From contig NC_092670.1 in assembly GCF_964355755.1 (NCBI RefSeq), positions 17,173,201-17,237,200 on the forward strand: a stretch of DNA of 64,000 bases, written 5' to 3'. Position numbers and translations under genes: made by a program. Of the stretch, positions 4,897 to 45,446 are shown one piece after another. The notes beneath the pieces are model-generated. The model did no database searches. It saw only the letters and a list, made by a program, of their open reading frames with translations, and was not told the DNA's origin. The DNA comes from Antedon mediterranea. Taxonomy: Eukaryota > Echinodermata > Crinoidea > Comatulida > Antedonidae. The stretch's first letter is position 1; the number at the start of each line of letters is the position of its first letter.

Positions 4897-7800
4897 TTAT
4901 TTTTTAGCATTACTGTAATACTTGACATGTTCCACTAGTTTGTCTCTGTCTTCTTCTGGGAGAAATGCACATTCAGCAGCACAAACTCTCTGTAAGATAA
5001 TAAAATAACATTTATACCAAAAAGGTGCACTATGGATTACTGTTTTATATTCATATAAGCATAGGCCTACTAGTACATTAAATACTGAAGGCACTTACTA
5101 ATCTTATCAGATCTTCATCAGATATTCCAAAATATTTCAGAGCAATATCCTCTTCTGTCATTAATGTGTTCATAAAATGCAAACTGTCGTCAGTATTTAA
5201 TGAAAAATTCAAACTATCTTTTGCAAATCTGCAAAAAAAATGCATGGTATTGTACAAACACTCTGCAGCTTGTCACAGCATATGGTATATTAGTGTATTT
5301 GATGACATCAAATTAGCAGTAGACAATGTTTACATTATCGACTGTACTAGCAACAATTATAAAGACATAATTATCAGCAGGAATGACTCTGCAATGATGC
5401 ATTCATACACCACTCACTCATCAAAAACAAGCACACATGCAAAGGCATTGTTGTGGCTTTCATGCTATGTTGAATTTGAGAACAGTTCTTTTCATGTGCT
5501 ATGTTGTTTTATTTGTTTTTATTTTATCAGTCTGTGCCTCCCTTGTTCTACTCTCTTTTGTTCCTATGCACTCAGGCTTATGCCTTATATTACTATATAT
5601 ATATCACTGATGAAAGGCTAGTGTCGCCTGAAAGCTCTGCTAATTTTTCTGGCCGTTTTACTTTATTGTTTTGATTTTTGCTTATTTTATTTGTATCTCC
5701 ATTGAGATCCAGCCACTGATACCCACAGCATTGTCATTATTTTCAGTAATTTGCCTTTGAATTTATACTAATATAGTGTTATAAAGTACTATGAAGTAAC
5801 CAAGTTTTATTTTTGTTTGTGATATATATAATATTATATATGTACTCTCATTACCTCTGAACAACACATAGCGTTTAGCTTAGCAATTCTTTCTGACTGT
5901 TTACTCTTTGTATCTCTGTTAAGATCCAGCCACTGATACATTCATCACTGTCAGTTTTGTTTTTATAGTAATTTGTCTTTAATTTATAATACAATTTGAA
6001 TGACCTTATAGCTGGATGTTTATTCCAATCTGGACTAACACTACCAAGGACCATGCTAGAGGTTGGGCATACTTCCAAATGTACATTTGCCTTCTTTACC
6101 AACTGTTGGAAGATTGAAATATGTTAAGAATGATAAAATGAATCGCATACTCTCTTATTTAGCAATATACGACAAAATACCATGTCTAAATCAAATCTAA
6201 TTGAAATTTATAAAAAAAAACATCAAGACAAAACATTTGAAATTACAAAATTGTTCTTTGAAAGAAAATAAATGTAACTTTGAAACCTCATAAACTTTAT
6301 CATCATCAAGACAATGATAACCGTGACCTATACGTTGAGCTTTAAACACCTCAATTGCTTCCTTTACATTGGCTGCTGGTCCAGACTCCCCTGCATGTAT
6401 TGTTCTCTTTATATTTAGTTTAATGGCTTCCTGAAAAACAAAGATACATTACCCAATTCCATTTTCTCAGAATGCAGGGTTTTGTTAAGGATCAAAATAT
6501 AGGAGGCCTGTAGAAAAATAAGGGAAATATTTGGTACGAAAGCTTAGACTCTGCACTCAGAAGGTATTTCATTGGAACATTAACATACTGTGTTAATACA
6601 TTTTATATATTTGGATGAGCTAAACTTTATTTACCTGAAATGCCTGGTGAAATTCATTTTGTAGAGTTAGTGATTCGTCACCACCAATACCAATGCCTAC
6701 AACACCATCATTTCGATACTTGTCACATAATTCTACAACCTCCTGGCACCATTCTACAAACAAAAATATTACTATTATAAGACACCATTATTTAATCTTC
6801 ACCAATGTATTTTTAGCAACTTACATTACAGTGTTGTAAATAGAGGGCTTTTACAATGCTATCATCATTGAAAACTTTCTACAGTCTGTATTTCTTTTCA
6901 AATGCTAAACACATAAATGAAAGTACTCAGAAACGAGTGGAGTACTTGGCATAATATATCCACAGAGAGGGAGCATGTTGAAAGATACATTTTTTTTGCT
7001 TTTGGTAATAACCATGGTTCAAATCCTGCTGGGGTTGTATAAATTACAAACTCTGGTATTGAAACAATGACCTTTTTGAAATCACGATTGACCAGAACAA
7101 TGGTCTAGGAGTGTCTTGAATCTGTGCCCCTGCCTTAACCCATTCAGTTTAACCAGTCGACTAATATTTTGGTCCATGTCAAAGAATGTATCCATATTAA
7201 GAATACAGAAGATGAGCTATTTAATATATATGGTATGGAAGATAAGCTTTTGTGACATGACCAATATATCAATTTTCCTGAAAATCAATAGGCATGTCTG
7301 TAAGTACGGAACAGAATTCTGGAGAATTTCCTACTCTGTATTCTTTTTTCTGAAATAAAAGATGAAATAAGTATATACCTATGTACAGAATGAAATAAGG
7401 AATGACGCATATAAACTAATTATCAACTAAAAATAGTTAATTTGAATAACAATAGAACATCCGATTTTCTTGAATTTCAACAGGCATGGTCTGTAAGTAT
7501 ATATCTATCTAAAATGAAAAATTCTGAATATTAACTTGAAAATTGTAGGCACTATCATGCTAACTAACAAACATACAAACAAAGCAAGTATTTTGTTTCT
7601 AGCTATTTCAAGCTATTGCACATAATTGCATCATAAGGAAATGATAGTCGCCAAATGTATTGCAATTTTACTTTCTGTTTGGTTATACTGCATTACATTA
7701 TAATAAACAAGGACTCTATTGTATCAGAGAAGATTATAATTTTACTCTTCCCTGATTGTATATCATTTTTGTAAGCTATAAATCTCAAAGATAATGTTAC

Positions 7801-9816
7801 TACTGTACTTTGTGCAATGTTCAAATTTTCAAATCTTTATTTTATTGTAATGCACTATTGATAATTTTATGTGTGAACCACTGAAATTTCACCATGTTAA
7901 AAACATGATAATAACAGGACTGTAGTAAGGGGTTAATAAAATGTCCTCATGTTGACAACAGCCCTGCAATAAAGTTTATGTTATGTAAACTAAAAGACAC
8001 AGCCACCGATGCACTCAGAATTTATTTATTGAAAATTTGGCAAATAGCCTAAGAGGAAACCATAGGCCAATCGCCCAACACAGAAGTTGGAAAGTCCCTA
8101 CCAGGCTACGACATTACAATGAAAATGTTCAGAGATAATCTGTTTGATGATTTTTTTCTTAAATTGTTGCTAATGTTTTTTTTTTTAAATCATTATTGTA
8201 TTCTTGAACTGCAACTTTGTAAATTTCCTGTGAAGGATGAAAGTTTATCTGTATCTGTATATAATAAATATTTAAAAAGTATATACAAAAACAGAATAAA
8301 CTGGACATTAAAATTAACAAGAAAAAATATGCATTGTTTATTTGCAAAGTTTGTGTTTGGATTTATAAATATCAAATACAATAGTACCTGGTTTTCCCCT
8401 CATAAGACATAGTATACTCCTTGCTTGTACCCCATACTTGTCTTGTCCTTCTTTTAAACCTTCATTCACAAGTTGTACAACTTGATCTGCTGTCATATTT
8501 TCATTTGATAGAAGATGAGGGCAGTATGATGTTTCGAAATATGCAACCCCTTCCTTCAATTTATCTTCACACAGATCTCTTGCAATTTCCTTTATTGCTT
8601 CACTATCACCTCTAATAATTATAACAAATGATGAAATAAAATTTAAAAAACATTGATTAACCATTTCAGTCTAATTGTTTAAAAGAATGTTTCCAAAGAT
8701 GGTATCATAATGAGAATAATATGTTATTTGAAATTGACAGCGTACATTCTATCAAGGCATTTAATATTGTACTATAACTTACCTTAGAATAGGCATATAA
8801 ATTTCAAAACTCTTGATGAATTTTGTCAATGATCCACCACCCACTACGTGTAGCTCTGAAGTGAAGTCTTTAAAATTCTTTCCAGGCAGTGTATCTACCA
8901 TGCCACGTCGTCTAAAAAAACATATCTTGTTTATAGTCTAGTATAGTTTTTCTACATACCGTATTTATTCAAATAAACACCCAAGGGCATTTCTTGTTCA
9001 TTAAGGTTATTCGTTTGGAAGGTGCGGTCATTTATTTCAAATGATGTTTTAACTTTTATGGGTGGTTTATTCAGAGCAGAGTATTTTTTTCTAAACAATA
9101 AATTTGACAAGTTGTGCTTGTTGTATTTTGTATAATGTGATTTATATTTTTATTAGAGGTAATTCTCAAAAGTGAAGAAAATAAGAAAAAACAGGGGTTA
9201 AAACAGTTCAAGATAAATTCAATTTTTCCATTTTCTTTGATATAATTATTTTACATACTTAGCAATGTTCCAAAGAGTTTCTGCCCGACAAGAACCATCA
9301 AGGTGGCAATGTAACTCAACCTAAAACAAAACCAATTCAACACATCCATAGCATTATTAATTATAATATATTGAAATAGGCCTAGGCCTAGTATTAATGT
9401 TTCTAGGCCTGGCCCTACCCTACCCTAGCAAGAGATAGTTTTTATTTAGATTGATTCTGCATCATTTAATACTGCTTGGAGCTGTCAGTACATTTTATAC
9501 AAGTTATGAAAATGATTTGACAATTGATTAATAACATTAATGTAAACAAATATTTATATTTTAAGAAGGAAATGAAGTGCAGTGACAGTCCACGACCTCT
9601 CAAATCTCGTGCTTCCCCATCCCCAGGTACGTATTATTGTGACTTGCCTCTTCCTCCTCTGCAAAACCCATCGTAAAATTAAACACCACCTTTTCACTAT
9701 TCTGTACCTAACACTATGTATTATTGTTTAATATATTAACTATATAGCATGAATCTATTAAACACATTTTATTCAATAATTACCCTGTAAAGACCTTCTT
9801 TAAACGAACTTGCCAT
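4897..9816 (-). CDS. ADA: Adenosine deaminase, copy A (ADA-A)
   Basis: Hydrolytic deamination of adenosine/deoxyadenosine to inosine; classical zinc-dependent ADA fold. Nine exons in coding order: 9816-9784, 9320-9259, 8911-8783, 8611-8388, 6753-6635, 6430-6287, 6102-6005, 5228-5099, 4989-4897; 343 residues (human ADA 363). All introns GT-AG and phases are consistent. Metal and catalytic motifs are complete: HxH in VELHCHLDGS, GIGGDES, the HAGE motif, GHGYH, and NTDDSLHF with the Asp pair. The protein ends ...VKYYSNAKK with no lipidation signal and no signal peptide, so it is probably cytosolic. It sits directly downstream of a second ADA gene on the same strand with the same exon plan, so the two are tandem duplicates. 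Assignment to the ADA1 group rather than ADAL or secreted ADGF is from motif spacing and absence of a secretory leader. Confidence 0.9.
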
Positions 9817-10519
9817 TCTGAATGTTCCAAAGTTAATAAAGCTCAATGCAAATCTTCTATTCATTATAATGTTGTCATAACCTTTGTCCTCTGGAATCAT
9901 CCAAGCGTGTATTACTAATGACTATGGGACGCTTACAGCGCATTTTAACATGCTTATTAGTCCGGCGTTTATTAGATCATTAATATATTTATAAAAAAAA
10001 CAAATAAAAATGAAATGAAACGACCTCGGCAAGACGAACGAAGTTGATCGAGCTTATTTTCATGGGGACACTTATTTAATTCAGTGATTTACCGTTTTCC
10101 ATGCAGATCACCAGAATGTTGAATATACAGAATAACATAAAAATCTTTTTAAGGTAATGTTTTCAACTTTTATTAACTTTATATATCAAATAACTATTAT
10201 TAATTCGTGAAATATAAACATGTTATTGTTGCTAAGGAAAGAGTGATCTTTCTTATTTGCAAAAAGTAAAAACTGGGAATGTATTTATAGTATTACAATT
10301 CTGAGTAGGCCTACATAATACTACAGCTTCCCCGAAGTCGGTCTAGTACTGTTGTTTTTAATGTGATCAAATAACTATTATATCACTCGTGAAATAGAAA
10401 GCATGTTGCTATAGGATGCTAATGTAATTCACGTGCTTACTATCCATGGAAGAATCTTTTTATTTGCAAAAAGTAGAAACTTAGGATGTATTTATATTAT
10501 TACAATTAACTGAGTAGGC
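9817..10519. repeat. Spacer between ADA genes with a decayed duplicate of the ADA-B 3' end
   Basis: About 190 bases at 10180-10360 are a tandem copy of 10370-10585, the latter covering the ADA-B polyadenylation region and the last codons. Shared stretches include TTTGCAAAAAGTA, GAGTAGGCCTACA and TCTAGTACTGTT. In the downstream copy the codons matching ADA-B read through STRPTSGKL to an early stop, lacking the Cys-rich tail. A TTTATT at 10459 (AATAAA on the minus strand) lies about 56 bases after the ADA-B stop. The rest is presumably the ADA-A promoter. Confidence 0.65.
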
Positions 10520-10537
10520 CTACAGAATACTACAGCA
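10520..10537 (-). other. Candidate prenylation/palmitoylation tail of ADA-B
   Basis: The last codons read P-C-C-C-S-I-L-stop. The final four residues C-S-I-L fit C-a-a-X with X = Leu, the preference of geranylgeranyltransferase I. The two preceding Cys are typical palmitoylation positions. The adjacent ADA-A gene lacks this tail and so does human ADA. Confidence 0.65.
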
Positions 10538-13500
10538 GCAGGGCTGCTCCGAATTAGGTCTAGTACTGTTCTTTTTAATATGTTTAACCAAAATCTGCTT
10601 ATCTTCATCAGACAGAAATGACGCTTCGGCAGCTCGAATTCTCTGTAAAAATAATAAATTGCAGTTAAGAGAGTCAGAAATACAAATGAACCTATCGTAG
10701 TACGTATACGATAACACGTTGTCAATGAGATACATTGTCCCCAAAGTACACACATAACACTGACTAAAACACTGATTAAAATCTCTATTATAATAAATAA
10801 GCCTGTTCCTATACGGAAACTTTGTCACGTACAACGGTAGATGAGATATCATGGTTCACTGAAGTGAGCGAGTGGCCAAACGGTTATTAAGACAGTGGAA
10901 CTGTAACATCGGCAATGGTTCGAGGCTCACTCGCTCCATGGTGGTGGTAGAACGAGTCTTCTCGGATAAGGACTATAAATAAACCGTATAGGTCCAGTGT
11001 ACATATAGCTCATGTGAACTTTAAACAACCTAGTAAATCTTTCGAGACGACTCCGATGTACTAGTCCACACAAACACAGCCACTGTCACACACAGCCACT
11101 GTGCAATTGGGATTGATCCTTTACTAACAGTGTTAGTGAGAAGTTGAATAAATTAAAAAAATAAACAAAAAAGAAGTACATTCGAGTGTGTCATATCTTA
11201 CCGCTTTTAGTATGTCTTCTTCAGACATACCAAAGTATTTAAGTGCAATTTCTTCCTCATCCCCAACCGTGTTGTTGAAGTGAAGTGGATCATCAGTGTT
11301 GAGCGAAAAGTTGATGTTATCTCTTGCAAATCTAATTTATTATTACAAATACAATTTGAATGGATGTTATTTCTTGCAATCTAATTTATTACAAATACAA
11401 TTTGAATTGATGTTATTTCTTGCAAATCTAATTTATTATTACAAATACAATTTGAATTTATGCTATTTCTTGTAATCTAATATACTACAATTACAATTTT
11501 AATTTGTATTTTCAATTAGATTCATAATAATTAAAACAGTAGAGTACGACCCAGAGGAAGATCGTGAAAGTTAAAATGAAATGGAAATTGAAAATGTAAT
11601 GGACAGAACAATGCAGAGGAAAGTGACGTAAAATAGTGGAAAGAGTCATGTTGCAAAGGACAGAACAATGCAGAGGAAAGTGACGTAAAATAGTGGAAAG
11701 AGTCATGTTGCAAAGGACAGAACAATGCAGCGGAAAGTGACGTAAAATAGTGGAAAGAGTCATGTTGCAAAGGACAGAACAATGCAGAGGAAAGTGACGT
11801 AAAATAGTGGAAAGAGTCATGTTGCAAAGGACAGAACAATGCAGAGGAAAGTGACGTAAAATAGTGGAAAGAGTCATGTTGCAAAGGACAGAACAATGCA
11901 GAGGAAAGTGACGTAAAATAGTGGAAAGAGTCATGTTGCAAAGGACAGAACAATGCAGAGGAAAGTGACGTAGAATAGTGGAAAGAGTCATGTTGCAAAG
12001 GACAGAACAATGCAGAGGAAAGTGACGTAAAATAGTGGAAAGAGTCATGTTGCAAAGGACAGAACAATGCAGAGGAAAGTGACGTAAAATAGTGGAAAGA
12101 GTCATGTTGCAAAGGACAGAACAATGCAGAGGAAAGTGACGTAAAATAGTGGAAAGAGTCATGTTGCAAAGGACAGAACAATGCAGAGGAAAGTGACGTA
12201 AAATAGTGGAAAGAGTCATGTTGCAAAGGACAGAACAATGCAGAGGAAAGTGACGTAAAATAGTGGAAAGAGTCATGTTGCAAAGGACAGAACAATGCAG
12301 AGGAAAGTGACGTAAAATAGTGGAAAGAGTCATGTTGCAAAGGCAAGAGGCGTGACTAAAGATGATGAATGTAAAACATAAAGTACTTACTTTTTCGCAG
12401 GATGTAATTTAAAGTCAGAACTAACAGATCCAAGACGGACACTGGAGGTTGGGCAAACTTCCAGGTGTACCTTACTAGTTTTTACCAACTGGAAAAAAAA
12501 CGAACACAAATTGAAGACGTATACTGTTTCAGAAAATCTTTATCATGTGCAACGTGCCCCGGGTGAATTCCTTGTCACTCATTCGTTTTTTGAAGCTTTT
12601 TTCCGGAAATGCCCTTAGCCATAGCTAAAAAGTATCAACGAAGTGATATGATGCACGCGCAACGCACGTATTGACTAATCAAAGTTCTCTAGCTTTGACG
12701 TCGCTTGGTCACAATACTACATACAACCATGGATTAATTAATGAATTCATTAATCCATGATACAACATAAGTGATGACTATTTTGAAAAAAAAAATGCAA
12801 ATACCGTGTAAACATTATCATCATCTACGCATCTATAGCCATGTCCAATTCGGTGTGCCTTAAACGTTTCAATTGCTCGTCGTATGTTTGCAGCAGGTGC
12901 AGGTACAGCCTCTCCTGCGTGTATGCTTCGATTTATTTTGAGACGGCAGGCTTCCTTCAAAATAAAATAAAAATCTATAGTACAGTATAAACAAATTGGG
13001 TTCAATTCAGATAAAAAAGGCCTACACATATCTATTCGTGTGTCTGTTTGTTTTGATCATGGAGAGGTATATACCTCCATGGTTTTGATGATGATCATAA
13101 AAAAAAATTAATCGTGGCTCGCGGGCTTTCCTATTTATTGTTGTCAAGACCAAACCAGTAAACGGGTGAACTTCCCTGCTATGTTAAAAAGGGTACGACC
13201 GCATATTTATACATTATTTTATACCAGTACTCTTTATTTGACTTCAGTTTGTTTTGTATACTAACAAAGTGTACAGAACAAGTTTTGTCGATTTTACGTG
13301 TGTAAATGTGGTTCTATTAGCAAAGACGTTCTAATTAATTTAGCGGATAGGCGTCAGTTATTTGATTAAATTTTTCTTTTTAAGGCTATGAACTCAATTT
13401 GTCATGGTAATTTTGAAGTGTACTTTCCTATTCTGTTCCACAATATCAATTGCGTATATCCTGCTTTATTTTTTATATTAAGAGGGAGGGTAAATGTTAC

Positions 13501-16500
13501 TAAAAATGGTTTTGTTAATCGTTTGCCTAAGTTATACCACTCACTATGTAAAGTTTATGGATCTGTTGGTATTTTTTTTATTTGATTGCTTGTTTCCGTC
13601 ACAAGGTTTTGTCTAATGTCAGTAATATCTAAATGTTGTCTTGTTATCTAATGATTTTTGCTTGAAAATATATGATATTATATTTTATGACTTTCAACCC
13701 TGTTAATGGTGACGTTTGGTCTCTGTAGGGTGATGATGAAATAAAATAGAAAAGAAAAAATAATCTTACATCCATTCCATCAAAGTATTCCTGTTGAAGT
13801 GGTTCTAGTTCATTTCCAGCCAATCCGATTCCAACCACACCATGATGTTTGTAAATCTGACATAGACGAACGACCTCGGCGCACCATTCTGTAATGAACG
13901 TTATAATAATATATGGGATATAGCAATGGATTTTTATTATGAATACTGCTGCTTTACAACTCTAGAAAAAACATGTCCGTCCCTATTTGCTAATGACATC
14001 AACATTGTGCCGAAAGAATCAATGAGAAAAAATTCATATCCCACGTGGAACTATAACATTGTTTTTATTTACTAATTAGTGTACATTGTAAGAACTGTTT
14101 AACTTGCCTGGTTTACCTATCAACATACAAAGAATACTGTTTGCCTTTACGCCAAATCTGTTGTGACCTTCGAAGAAAGCTTCATTGACGTTTTTCACTA
14201 CTTCTTCTGCAGTAACTCCACGCAATTCATCAGCCAATAGGTGTGGGCAGTAAGAAGCTTCGAAATATGCTACACCTTCTTTTGCCTTATCTTCACATAA
14301 TTCTAAAGCAATTCTTTTGATTGATTTTCTATGACCACTGAATAATATTGAGAGATGAACACCAAATGTAATAGTGTAGCACTTTGTAATTTTTTTTCCA
14401 TTCCATAGTAAATAAAAAGGAATGGTTAATGCAAGGGTAATAACATGTTCATTGGTGGTATAAGTGAATCTTTGTGTGTATAATGTTCCTACTGTTTACA
14501 GAGGTGGACTGACTGAAGTTAACGTAATTCTTGTCGAATTGTGTTGTGCCCCCGCACGTCAGAATTCATGAGAGGCCTACTAAACGGCATTGTCGAAGAA
14601 TCGTATACGTCTATCTGTCAGTCAGTATATAGTTAATAAAATCAATGTTCTACTTGCCTTAATATTGGTAAGAAAACGTCAAAAGTTTTAATAAATTTTG
14701 GAAGTGATCCTGAACCAGTAACCCGCAACTCTGAGATGAAGTTTTCTTTGCTTTTAAAACGTTTTTCAATGTCGATCATTTTACGTTCTCTAAAAGGTAA
14801 ATACAAACATACAGATAATATCTCTACGATAAGCAGGGAGATGTAAAATAAATTTATTTTATATCTACCTCATGATACAAGTAAAACTAACAAACAATGC
14901 ATATTTATTCATAACCGTACACTTCTTTGGTATACACGATCTTCAGTTTTTAAAAACACTCATTATAGAATCACTCACCTTTTGCGCACTTCAGTAATTG
15001 AAGTTGGAATGGAAAATCATCAGAAATAAACAAAAACAAATTGCTTTTTGTATTTTTTTAAAAACTATTTTATTTATTTATTTACCTTACTGTATCCCAA
15101 AGTGTTTCTGGTCGACAAGCACCGTCAAGATGTAAGTGCAACTCAATCTACACGATATACAACAAAAAATTAAACAAAAAATTACAGTATAAGGGTGTTA
15201 TACAGGCCCGTAGCCAGGGGGGGTTTTTATGGTTCGGGCGAACCCCCCCCCCCCTTTACAGCGAACCCCCCTTAACCGACTGCGAACCCCCATCCCCGAC
15301 ATGCCCAATACCTCACCCTCATCTCCAAAAATCCTCCAAATACGTGCCCCACAGTACAAAAAGTTGTTTGTAAATTGAAAAATTCGTAAACTTGTTCGTG
15401 AACCTTCTTCTCTGTATGAGCGTCAACTAGCGATACGTGTCTGTACATTTCTAAAAGCTGCAAATGAATTGCCGATTTTAACCTGAAAAATAAATGTTTG
15501 GTCCCTGCATGTAACATGATATTGACGCGTCTCATAGCGAACTGGGGCACGAACGATTCGTACAAAGGACACCGCCAGACAACTGCGTACCTATAATTGT
15601 TTAGATCACTGGCAGTCAGGCAGCATGCATAAAGTATATAGCCTTCCGACGTACATCAGTATTTATGTGTGACTATGAAGTATAATGTATCATAGAGGAT
15701 TATAGTGAATATTAATATTTTACACTATAATATCTATGGTATCAAGAGTACTGTAGTTCACATTATGGCATCCGATTATTTTTTTCTAGACCACCAGCCG
15801 ATACGTACTAAAATGTATCAATATCACCTATTTACATATTTATATTCCTCAACAAATTGCTGTAAATAAATATTATAGATAGAGCTAGCAAATAGCATTT
15901 GCCTTCAACCAGTGTGCTTTTTTCGGGGCTGCTCCTAGATGTACGTTCGCATTGAACGCAAAACAAAATACGGAGTAAATGATCAAACAATCGGCGGTTC
16001 CGCACAGAGCACGCGCATCTAACATACGGCAACAAAATAGTTATCGTCCTTTAAATTATCGACGTGTTTGAGAAGGAGGAAAAAAGTACGATCCTTTTGG
16101 TCATTGGTAGCATGCTGCACGAGAGTGTCTTTTCCGGCCATCTAGGGTTGTCATTTAACAAAATTCGCTTCGCATCAGGCCCCACCCCCAGGGGGGGGGG
16201 GGGGGGTTGACCCAAATATTTAGTGTCCGAACCCCCCCTTGACAGATCCTGGCTACGGCCCTGTATATGAATTGGAAATTCCAGCTCACTGTCAAACGAG
16301 AAATAGGCCTACGGTTTCATCATGTGAGTGCAGTACTTGGAAACCAGAGTATTCAGCATTAATGTCACAATCGCGATATATATCTATTTATTTTAGCCTA
16401 TCTGTACGGTTTTAGGAACAGTTAACTACCGGTACCACCCAAGAGGATCAGTAACAAATTGAAAAATTATTCTCATCTAAGAAGCTTTACGCAACCAGCA

Positions 16501-16556
16501 AGACCAAAATGATTAATTTTACGTACCCTAAACAACCCTGGTTTAAACATCGGCAT
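10520..16556 (-). CDS. Adenosine deaminase paralogue with C-terminal CaaX-type tail (ADA-B)
   Basis: Nine exons in coding order: 16556-16527, 15147-15086, 14789-14658, 14337-14108, 13888-13770, 12954-12805, 12488-12391, 11331-11202, 10642-10520; 357 residues. Exon phases match ADA-A throughout. Introns 3 and 4 appear to use GC donors (GCAAGT); a GT donor at the exon 4 edge (ending at 14117) is possible but would remove the conserved GKPG segment. Zinc and catalytic motifs are retained: IELHLHLDGA, the HAGE motif, GHGY, NTDDPLHF. Differences from ADA-A: AGNEL where most ADAs have AGDE, and CMLIGKPG where ADA-A has CLMRGKPG and human ADA has CMRH. The protein ends SEQPCCCSIL, a geranylgeranylation-type CaaX box with two extra Cys, so membrane anchoring is inferred. 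Intron 7 holds a 57-bp minisatellite and intron 1 a DNA transposon. Enzyme identity is firm; activity and localisation are inferred. Confidence 0.88.
10861..11166 (+). mobile_element. tRNA-derived SINE, Ser/Leu-like head (family 1)
   Basis: The head reads GAGCGAGTGGCCAAACGGTTA (A box) and GGTTCGAGGCTCACTC (B box), the layout of a class II tRNA, followed by a body shared with 21262-21582 and 39497-39777 (TCTTCTCGGATAAGGAC, TTTCGAGACGA). It lies in intron 8 of ADA-B. It is not a tRNA gene: the acceptor stem does not close and the body continues well past 90 bases. Confidence 0.75.
11312..11500 (-). repeat. Tandem duplication across the 3' splice site of ADA-B exon 8
   Basis: Four units of about 47-51 bases begin at about 11314, 11365, 11412 and 11462 on the plus strand. 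On the minus strand each contains AAATTAG followed by ATTGCAAGA or ATTTGCAAGA, i.e. the intron end, AG, and the first bases of exon 8. Only the unit abutting 11331 continues into the coding exon; the others are decoys upstream of it in the transcript. Confidence 0.75.
11598..12342. repeat. 57-bp minisatellite, about 13 near-identical units, in ADA-B intron 7
   Basis: Units repeat every 57 bases with almost no divergence (single changes near 11731 and 11972), implying recent homogenisation. Each carries AGTGACGTAAAATAGTGG, containing TGACGTAA (TGACGTAG in one unit), and GAGTCATGTTGCAAAGGAC. Because 57 is a multiple of three, two minus-strand frames stay open for about 270 codons; these are artefacts of periodicity, not a gene. 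Confidence 0.95.
15203..16263. mobile_element. DNA transposon with CAGG..CCGTAGCCAGG inverted termini
   Basis: Left end CAGGCCCGTAGCCAGG and right end CCTGGCTACGGCCCTG are near-perfect inverted repeats about 1.06 kb apart, flanked by TATA on both sides (possible TSD). Sub-terminal C and G runs are also inverted relative to each other. An internal minus-strand frame at 15272-15565 has no recognised transposase domain. The element lies in intron 1 of ADA-B. Superfamily is not resolved. Confidence 0.65.

Positions 16557-44160: not shown

Positions 44161-45446
<1,286 letters not shown>

Follow-up and report, generated by a model that had tools for sequence, protein, structure and literature searches.

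One of two adenosine deaminase (ADA) genes that lie side by side in the crinoid Antedon mediterranea ends in a cysteine-rich sequence of the kind that directs the attachment of a lipid, raising the question of whether its product is held at membranes by an anchor of its own or only resembles such a protein by chance. We addressed this in the stretch of 64,000 nucleotides that holds both genes, referred to here as the window, and by searches of the genome. The gene in question, ADA-B, is a complete ADA1-type gene on the minus strand, running from 16556 to 10520, and its nine exons have consistent phases and join without a frame break to code for 357 amino acids (splice junctions are marked by a slash):

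16527..16556, minus strand: exon 1, with the start ATG; reads MPMFKPGLFR, with no apparent signal peptide
15086..15147, minus strand: exon 2, with the HxH metal-binding motif (IELHLHLDGA)
14658..14789, minus strand: exon 3, with a GC donor (AAG/GCAAGT)
14108..14337, minus strand: exon 4, with a GC donor (CAG/GCAAGT)
13770..13888, minus strand: exon 5
12805..12954, minus strand: exon 6, with the SIHAGE and RIGHGY active-site motifs
12391..12488, minus strand: exon 7
11202..11331, minus strand: exon 8, with the SLNTDDP active-site motif
10520..10642, minus strand: exon 9, the last exon, ending PCCCSIL-stop
10459..10464, minus strand: poly(A) signal with the consensus sequence AATAAA, 56 nt beyond the stop

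The enzyme part of this model is well defined. The Pfam A_deaminase profile (PF00962) matches residues 11-341 of 357 over profile positions 3-329 of 330 (E 2.8e-73), and among solved structures in the PDB the protein matches vertebrate ADA1 enzymes best (E 6e-68). The zinc-binding and catalytic motifs are intact in the spliced protein (IELHLHLDGA, SIHAGEAV, RIGHGYRC, and SLNTDDP); the active-site positions are those of ADA1, and they were matched to solved ADA in an alignment. Inspected by eye, the N-terminus, MPMFKPGLFRIELH, has no visible signal peptide or transmembrane segment. ADA-B is predicted to be an intact cytosolic ADA1-type adenosine deaminase that arose as a tandem duplicate of ADA-A, and this forms part of the reading that we favor below.

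Intron donors are GT in six of the eight introns and GC in introns 3 and 4, which are GC-AG introns with strong AG/GCAAGT donors (14650-14658 and 14100-14108); the matching ADA-A introns use GT. Repeats are also present within the gene. A minisatellite in intron 7 (11601-12343) has 13 copies of a 57-nt unit that are 99% matching, and a second array (11311-11504), with a 46/96-nt period, overlaps the start of exon 8. Intron 1 contains a repeat element of ~1.06 kb (15200-16265) with inverted ends TACAGGCCCGTAGCCAGG and CCTGGCTACGGCCCTGTA; matches to nearly its full length number ~40, at 92-98% identity and spread over many contigs, and it probably represents a non-autonomous DNA transposon that was active recently.

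The adjoining paralogue is as follows:

4897..9816, minus strand: ADA-A, nine exons, 343 amino acids, ending KYYSNAKK without a CaaX box

The two proteins are 60% identical (203 identical of 340 aligned residues), and they account for all of the ADA1-type matches in the whole genome (354 Mb, 18 contigs), in searches of a kind that weak matches could escape. A PLAC8-family gene lies next to the ADA pair at 470-1900 on the plus strand, with exons at about 475-690 and 1377-1445, and an FtsJ-like RNA methyltransferase gene, probably MRM2, is at 44164-45112 on the minus strand.

The ends of the two proteins are as the original prediction described them, with ADA-A closing in NAKK and the last exon of ADA-B closing in PCCCSIL-stop. 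That exon occupies exactly 10520-10642, its acceptor is TTTTTACAG/AGAATTCGA, and its frame is set by exon 8 (phase 0). It translates as RIRAAEASFLSDEDKQILVKHIKKNSTRPNSEQPCCCSIL-stop, such that the C-terminal end of ADA-B is ...NSTRPNSEQPCCCSIL-stop. The codons of interest, read directly from the sequence, are these:

10520..10540, minus strand: codons for CCCSIL and the stop TAG, comprising the CaaX box CSIL and the two Cys before it

CSIL and its stop are in frame at 10520-10534 and match C-a-a-X with X = L and an aliphatic a2, a class that is read by the type I geranylgeranyltransferase, GGTase-I; the reading of this end as a geranylgeranylation-type box with two further Cys ahead of it thus stands. 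The tail comprises the 16 residues past the Pfam domain end at 341, and the alignment with solved ADA ends near the last helix and does not reach the tail, which is why we regard the tail as an appendix to the fold. By its sequence, KHIKKNSTRPNSEQP is a basic, polar linker between the fold and the Cys residues, and it is probably exposed. When the last exon was compared by itself with known structures, it gave chance-level matches only. The genome search revealed no processed copy from which the mRNA end could be read, with the ADA-B 3' end occurring once, and one scan of viral contigs, made in search of orthologues, found no relative.

In CaaX processing the Cys is prenylated, the last three residues are trimmed, the new end is methylated, and nearby Cys residues are open to S-acylation. 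Components for this are present in the genome, including exons on contig C11 that code for a GGTase-I beta subunit (E 6e-60 to GGTase-I beta in the PDB) and an ICMT-family match on contig C3. There are also G-gamma exons whose ends, read by eye, are CGIL, CCLI, and CTIV. Those ending CCLI and CGIL belong to two neighboring genes (L033 and L032) on the minus strand of contig C4, and the CCLI end has adjacent Cys, as in ADA-B.

We favor the reading, at a probability of about 0.52, that ADA-B is a cytosolic ADA1 with a flexible, geranylgeranylated CaaX tail that would hold it on the cytosolic side of a membrane, with ADA-A soluble. GGTase-I would most likely geranylgeranylate Cys354, the three residues SIL would be cut off and the resulting end methylated, Cys352 and/or Cys353 may be S-acylated, and ADA-B would sit at the cytosolic membrane face while ADA-A stays in the cytosol. 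In favor of this we count the clean nine-exon model, the tail being in frame and outside the domain, the basic, polar linker, the GGTase-I beta and ICMT-family genes, the G-gamma ending CGIL, the functional CSIL boxes of Arabidopsis PGL2 and barley RACB described below, and, mildly, the distribution of gaps between the two copies of the ADA-B 3' end. Against it we count the absence of such a tail from ADA-A, the chance frequency of similar ends, and a decayed copy of the ADA-B 3' end, the only comparable DNA, in which the Cys stretch is missing, such that the tail could be recent. The gene structure, frame, and tail sequence, the position of the tail outside the domain, the contrast with ADA-A, and the presence of the two processing genes are shown, and the original interpretation is reasonable and partly supported. 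Prenylation is plausible; like the expression, S-acylation, and location of ADA-B, it is inferred, as are the membrane concerned, the advantage conferred, and any contribution to clearing adenosine locally.

The strongest competing explanation is that the tail is a recent neutral extension, in which an indel of 8 nt, in sequence rich in CTG, shifted the stop and CCCSIL appeared by chance, being unprenylated or inefficiently prenylated and without a selected function; we consider this a serious possibility, if a tentative one. Chance expectations were obtained by simulating random C-termini with the composition of the window (GC 33%). Ends of the form C-x-[ILVM]-L arise at 1.6e-3 per random C-terminus, which amounts to ~39 among 25,000 genes; by chance alone, a proteome is expected to have tens of C-x-aliphatic-L ends. 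The longer form CC-C-x-[ILVM]-L arises at 5e-6 (~0.1 per 25,000), a rough figure from 2 cases in 400,000 simulated that overstates the surprise and is no significance level, since the motif was picked after it had been seen and the triple Cys lies within a CTG/TGC run. The Cys run of ADA-B is itself a TGC/TGC/TGT repeat, and this, together with the lack of a tail in ADA-A, speaks for the neutral explanation. On the other side, CSIL comes close to the GGTase-I consensus, has Cys residues next to it, and follows a linker that is probably exposed, and prenylation is likely if the tail is translated.

The decayed copy bears on the same question. It belongs to a tandem duplication downstream of ADA-B that is new here and was absent from the original prediction:

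10366..10590, minus strand: unit 2, the live copy, with the last codons of exon 9 and the 3' UTR
10185..10372, minus strand: unit 1, the decayed copy, past the live stop and poly(A) signal, its own signal decayed to AATAAG

The two units are 12-14% diverged, and their alignment scores 219.5, versus a maximum of 65 in 500 shuffles. Unit 1 is most likely a noncoding relic, given its position past both the stop and the poly(A) signal of the live copy and the change of its own signal to AATAAG. It is missing 8 nt of the Cys stretch, GAGCAG[CCCTGCTG]CTGTAG, and would read STRPTSGKL-stop. A single small indel that shifts the frame within CTG-rich sequence is thus all that separates the tail from a plain end, a further point for the neutral explanation. 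The copies being identical at duplication, either the 8 nt were a later gain in the coding copy, making the tail recent, or they were lost from the relic, making the tail older than the duplication. The polarity of the indel is judged from two sequences, too few to polarize it; gaps other than this one number 5 to 9 in the relic, depending on alignment settings, versus a single one in the coding copy, and the 8 nt neither form a local tandem duplication nor copy anything in the neighborhood. With most other gaps in the relic and no local template for the 8 nt, loss from the relic, and hence a tail that predates the duplication, is mildly favored, by roughly two to one in our judgment, and this argues against a recent neutral origin.

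A further alternative, that the ADA-B model is wrong at its end through an alternative last exon, a polymorphic or misassembled CTG run, or a gene that is not expressed, seems improbable to us. The model derives from a single assembly, and gain or loss of 1 or 2 nt in the short repeat would alter the frame; against this, exon 9 has a consensus acceptor and the correct phase, is homologous to the ADA C-terminal helix, completes an otherwise intact nine-exon open reading frame, and is followed, 56 nt after its stop, by a consensus poly(A) signal. That the unmodified C-terminus serves instead as a class I PDZ ligand (S-x-L, the last three residues) and recruits ADA-B to a scaffold is very improbable, since, while S-I-L fits the S/T-x-hydrophobic pattern found at the C-terminal end of such ligands, prenylation and removal of SIL would destroy the ligand and the Cys cluster before it would be left unexplained.

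Returning to the lipid-anchored reading, it can be extended to an evolutionary proposal in which ADA1 was duplicated in tandem and one duplicate acquired a conserved CaaX/Cys tail, becoming the first known membrane-anchored cytosolic adenosine deaminase. It would divide labor with its soluble paralogue and remove adenosine at the points of entry through nucleoside transporters; in this full form we think the proposal rather unlikely. If the tail is prenylated, ADA-B would be the first adenosine deaminase membrane-anchored by its own lipid, as far as the literature searched shows, and it would allow adenosine clearance at the cytosolic membrane face to be tested against clearance in the bulk cytosol. 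If it is not, the locus illustrates clearly that chance readily produces CaaX-like ends. In either case the relic at 10185-10372 is useful for dating the tail, given orthologues. We found no description of a prenylated or lipid-anchored ADA in the literature searched. The top literature match for a lipid-anchored ADA (PMC7958859) was rejected, as ADA is only a reagent there.

Compared with known deaminases, ADA-B shares with ADA1 (human, bovine, and mouse ADA; PF00962) the fold, active-site motifs, length, and predicted cytosolic location, and differs in the extra 16-residue, Cys-rich CaaX tail past the domain. The ADA2/ADGF deaminases are secreted, with a signal peptide and extra domains; they belong to the same deaminase superfamily and carry out the same reaction as that predicted for ADA-B, in which neither a signal peptide nor extra domains are seen. 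Known ADA1 is described as acting inside cells and reaching the cell surface via binding partners such as CD26 (PMC7587364).

The C-a-a-L box is shared with the type I plant ROP RACB, in which it is likewise CSIL, and with animal Rho, Rap, and G-gamma C-termini; these are signaling G proteins, whereas ADA-B is a nucleoside-metabolizing enzyme. Removing CSIL from barley RACB places the protein in the cytosol instead of at the plasma membrane (PMC8956194). Arabidopsis 6-phosphogluconolactonase 2 (PGL2) also has a CSIL box, and changing its Cys to Ser leaves the protein in the cytosol instead of at the endoplasmic reticulum (ER) membrane (PMC9478949); PGL2 has been discussed in connection with gene duplication giving rise to prenylated isoforms (PMC12609287). 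PGL2 is an unrelated enzyme from a plant and its box has been shown experimentally, while that of ADA-B is predicted from the sequence. Both are one paralogue of a soluble metabolic enzyme with an identical CSIL end and, if its tail is prenylated, ADA-B would be an animal counterpart of plant PGL2, in which a minor change at the C-terminus brought one paralogue of a metabolic enzyme to membranes.
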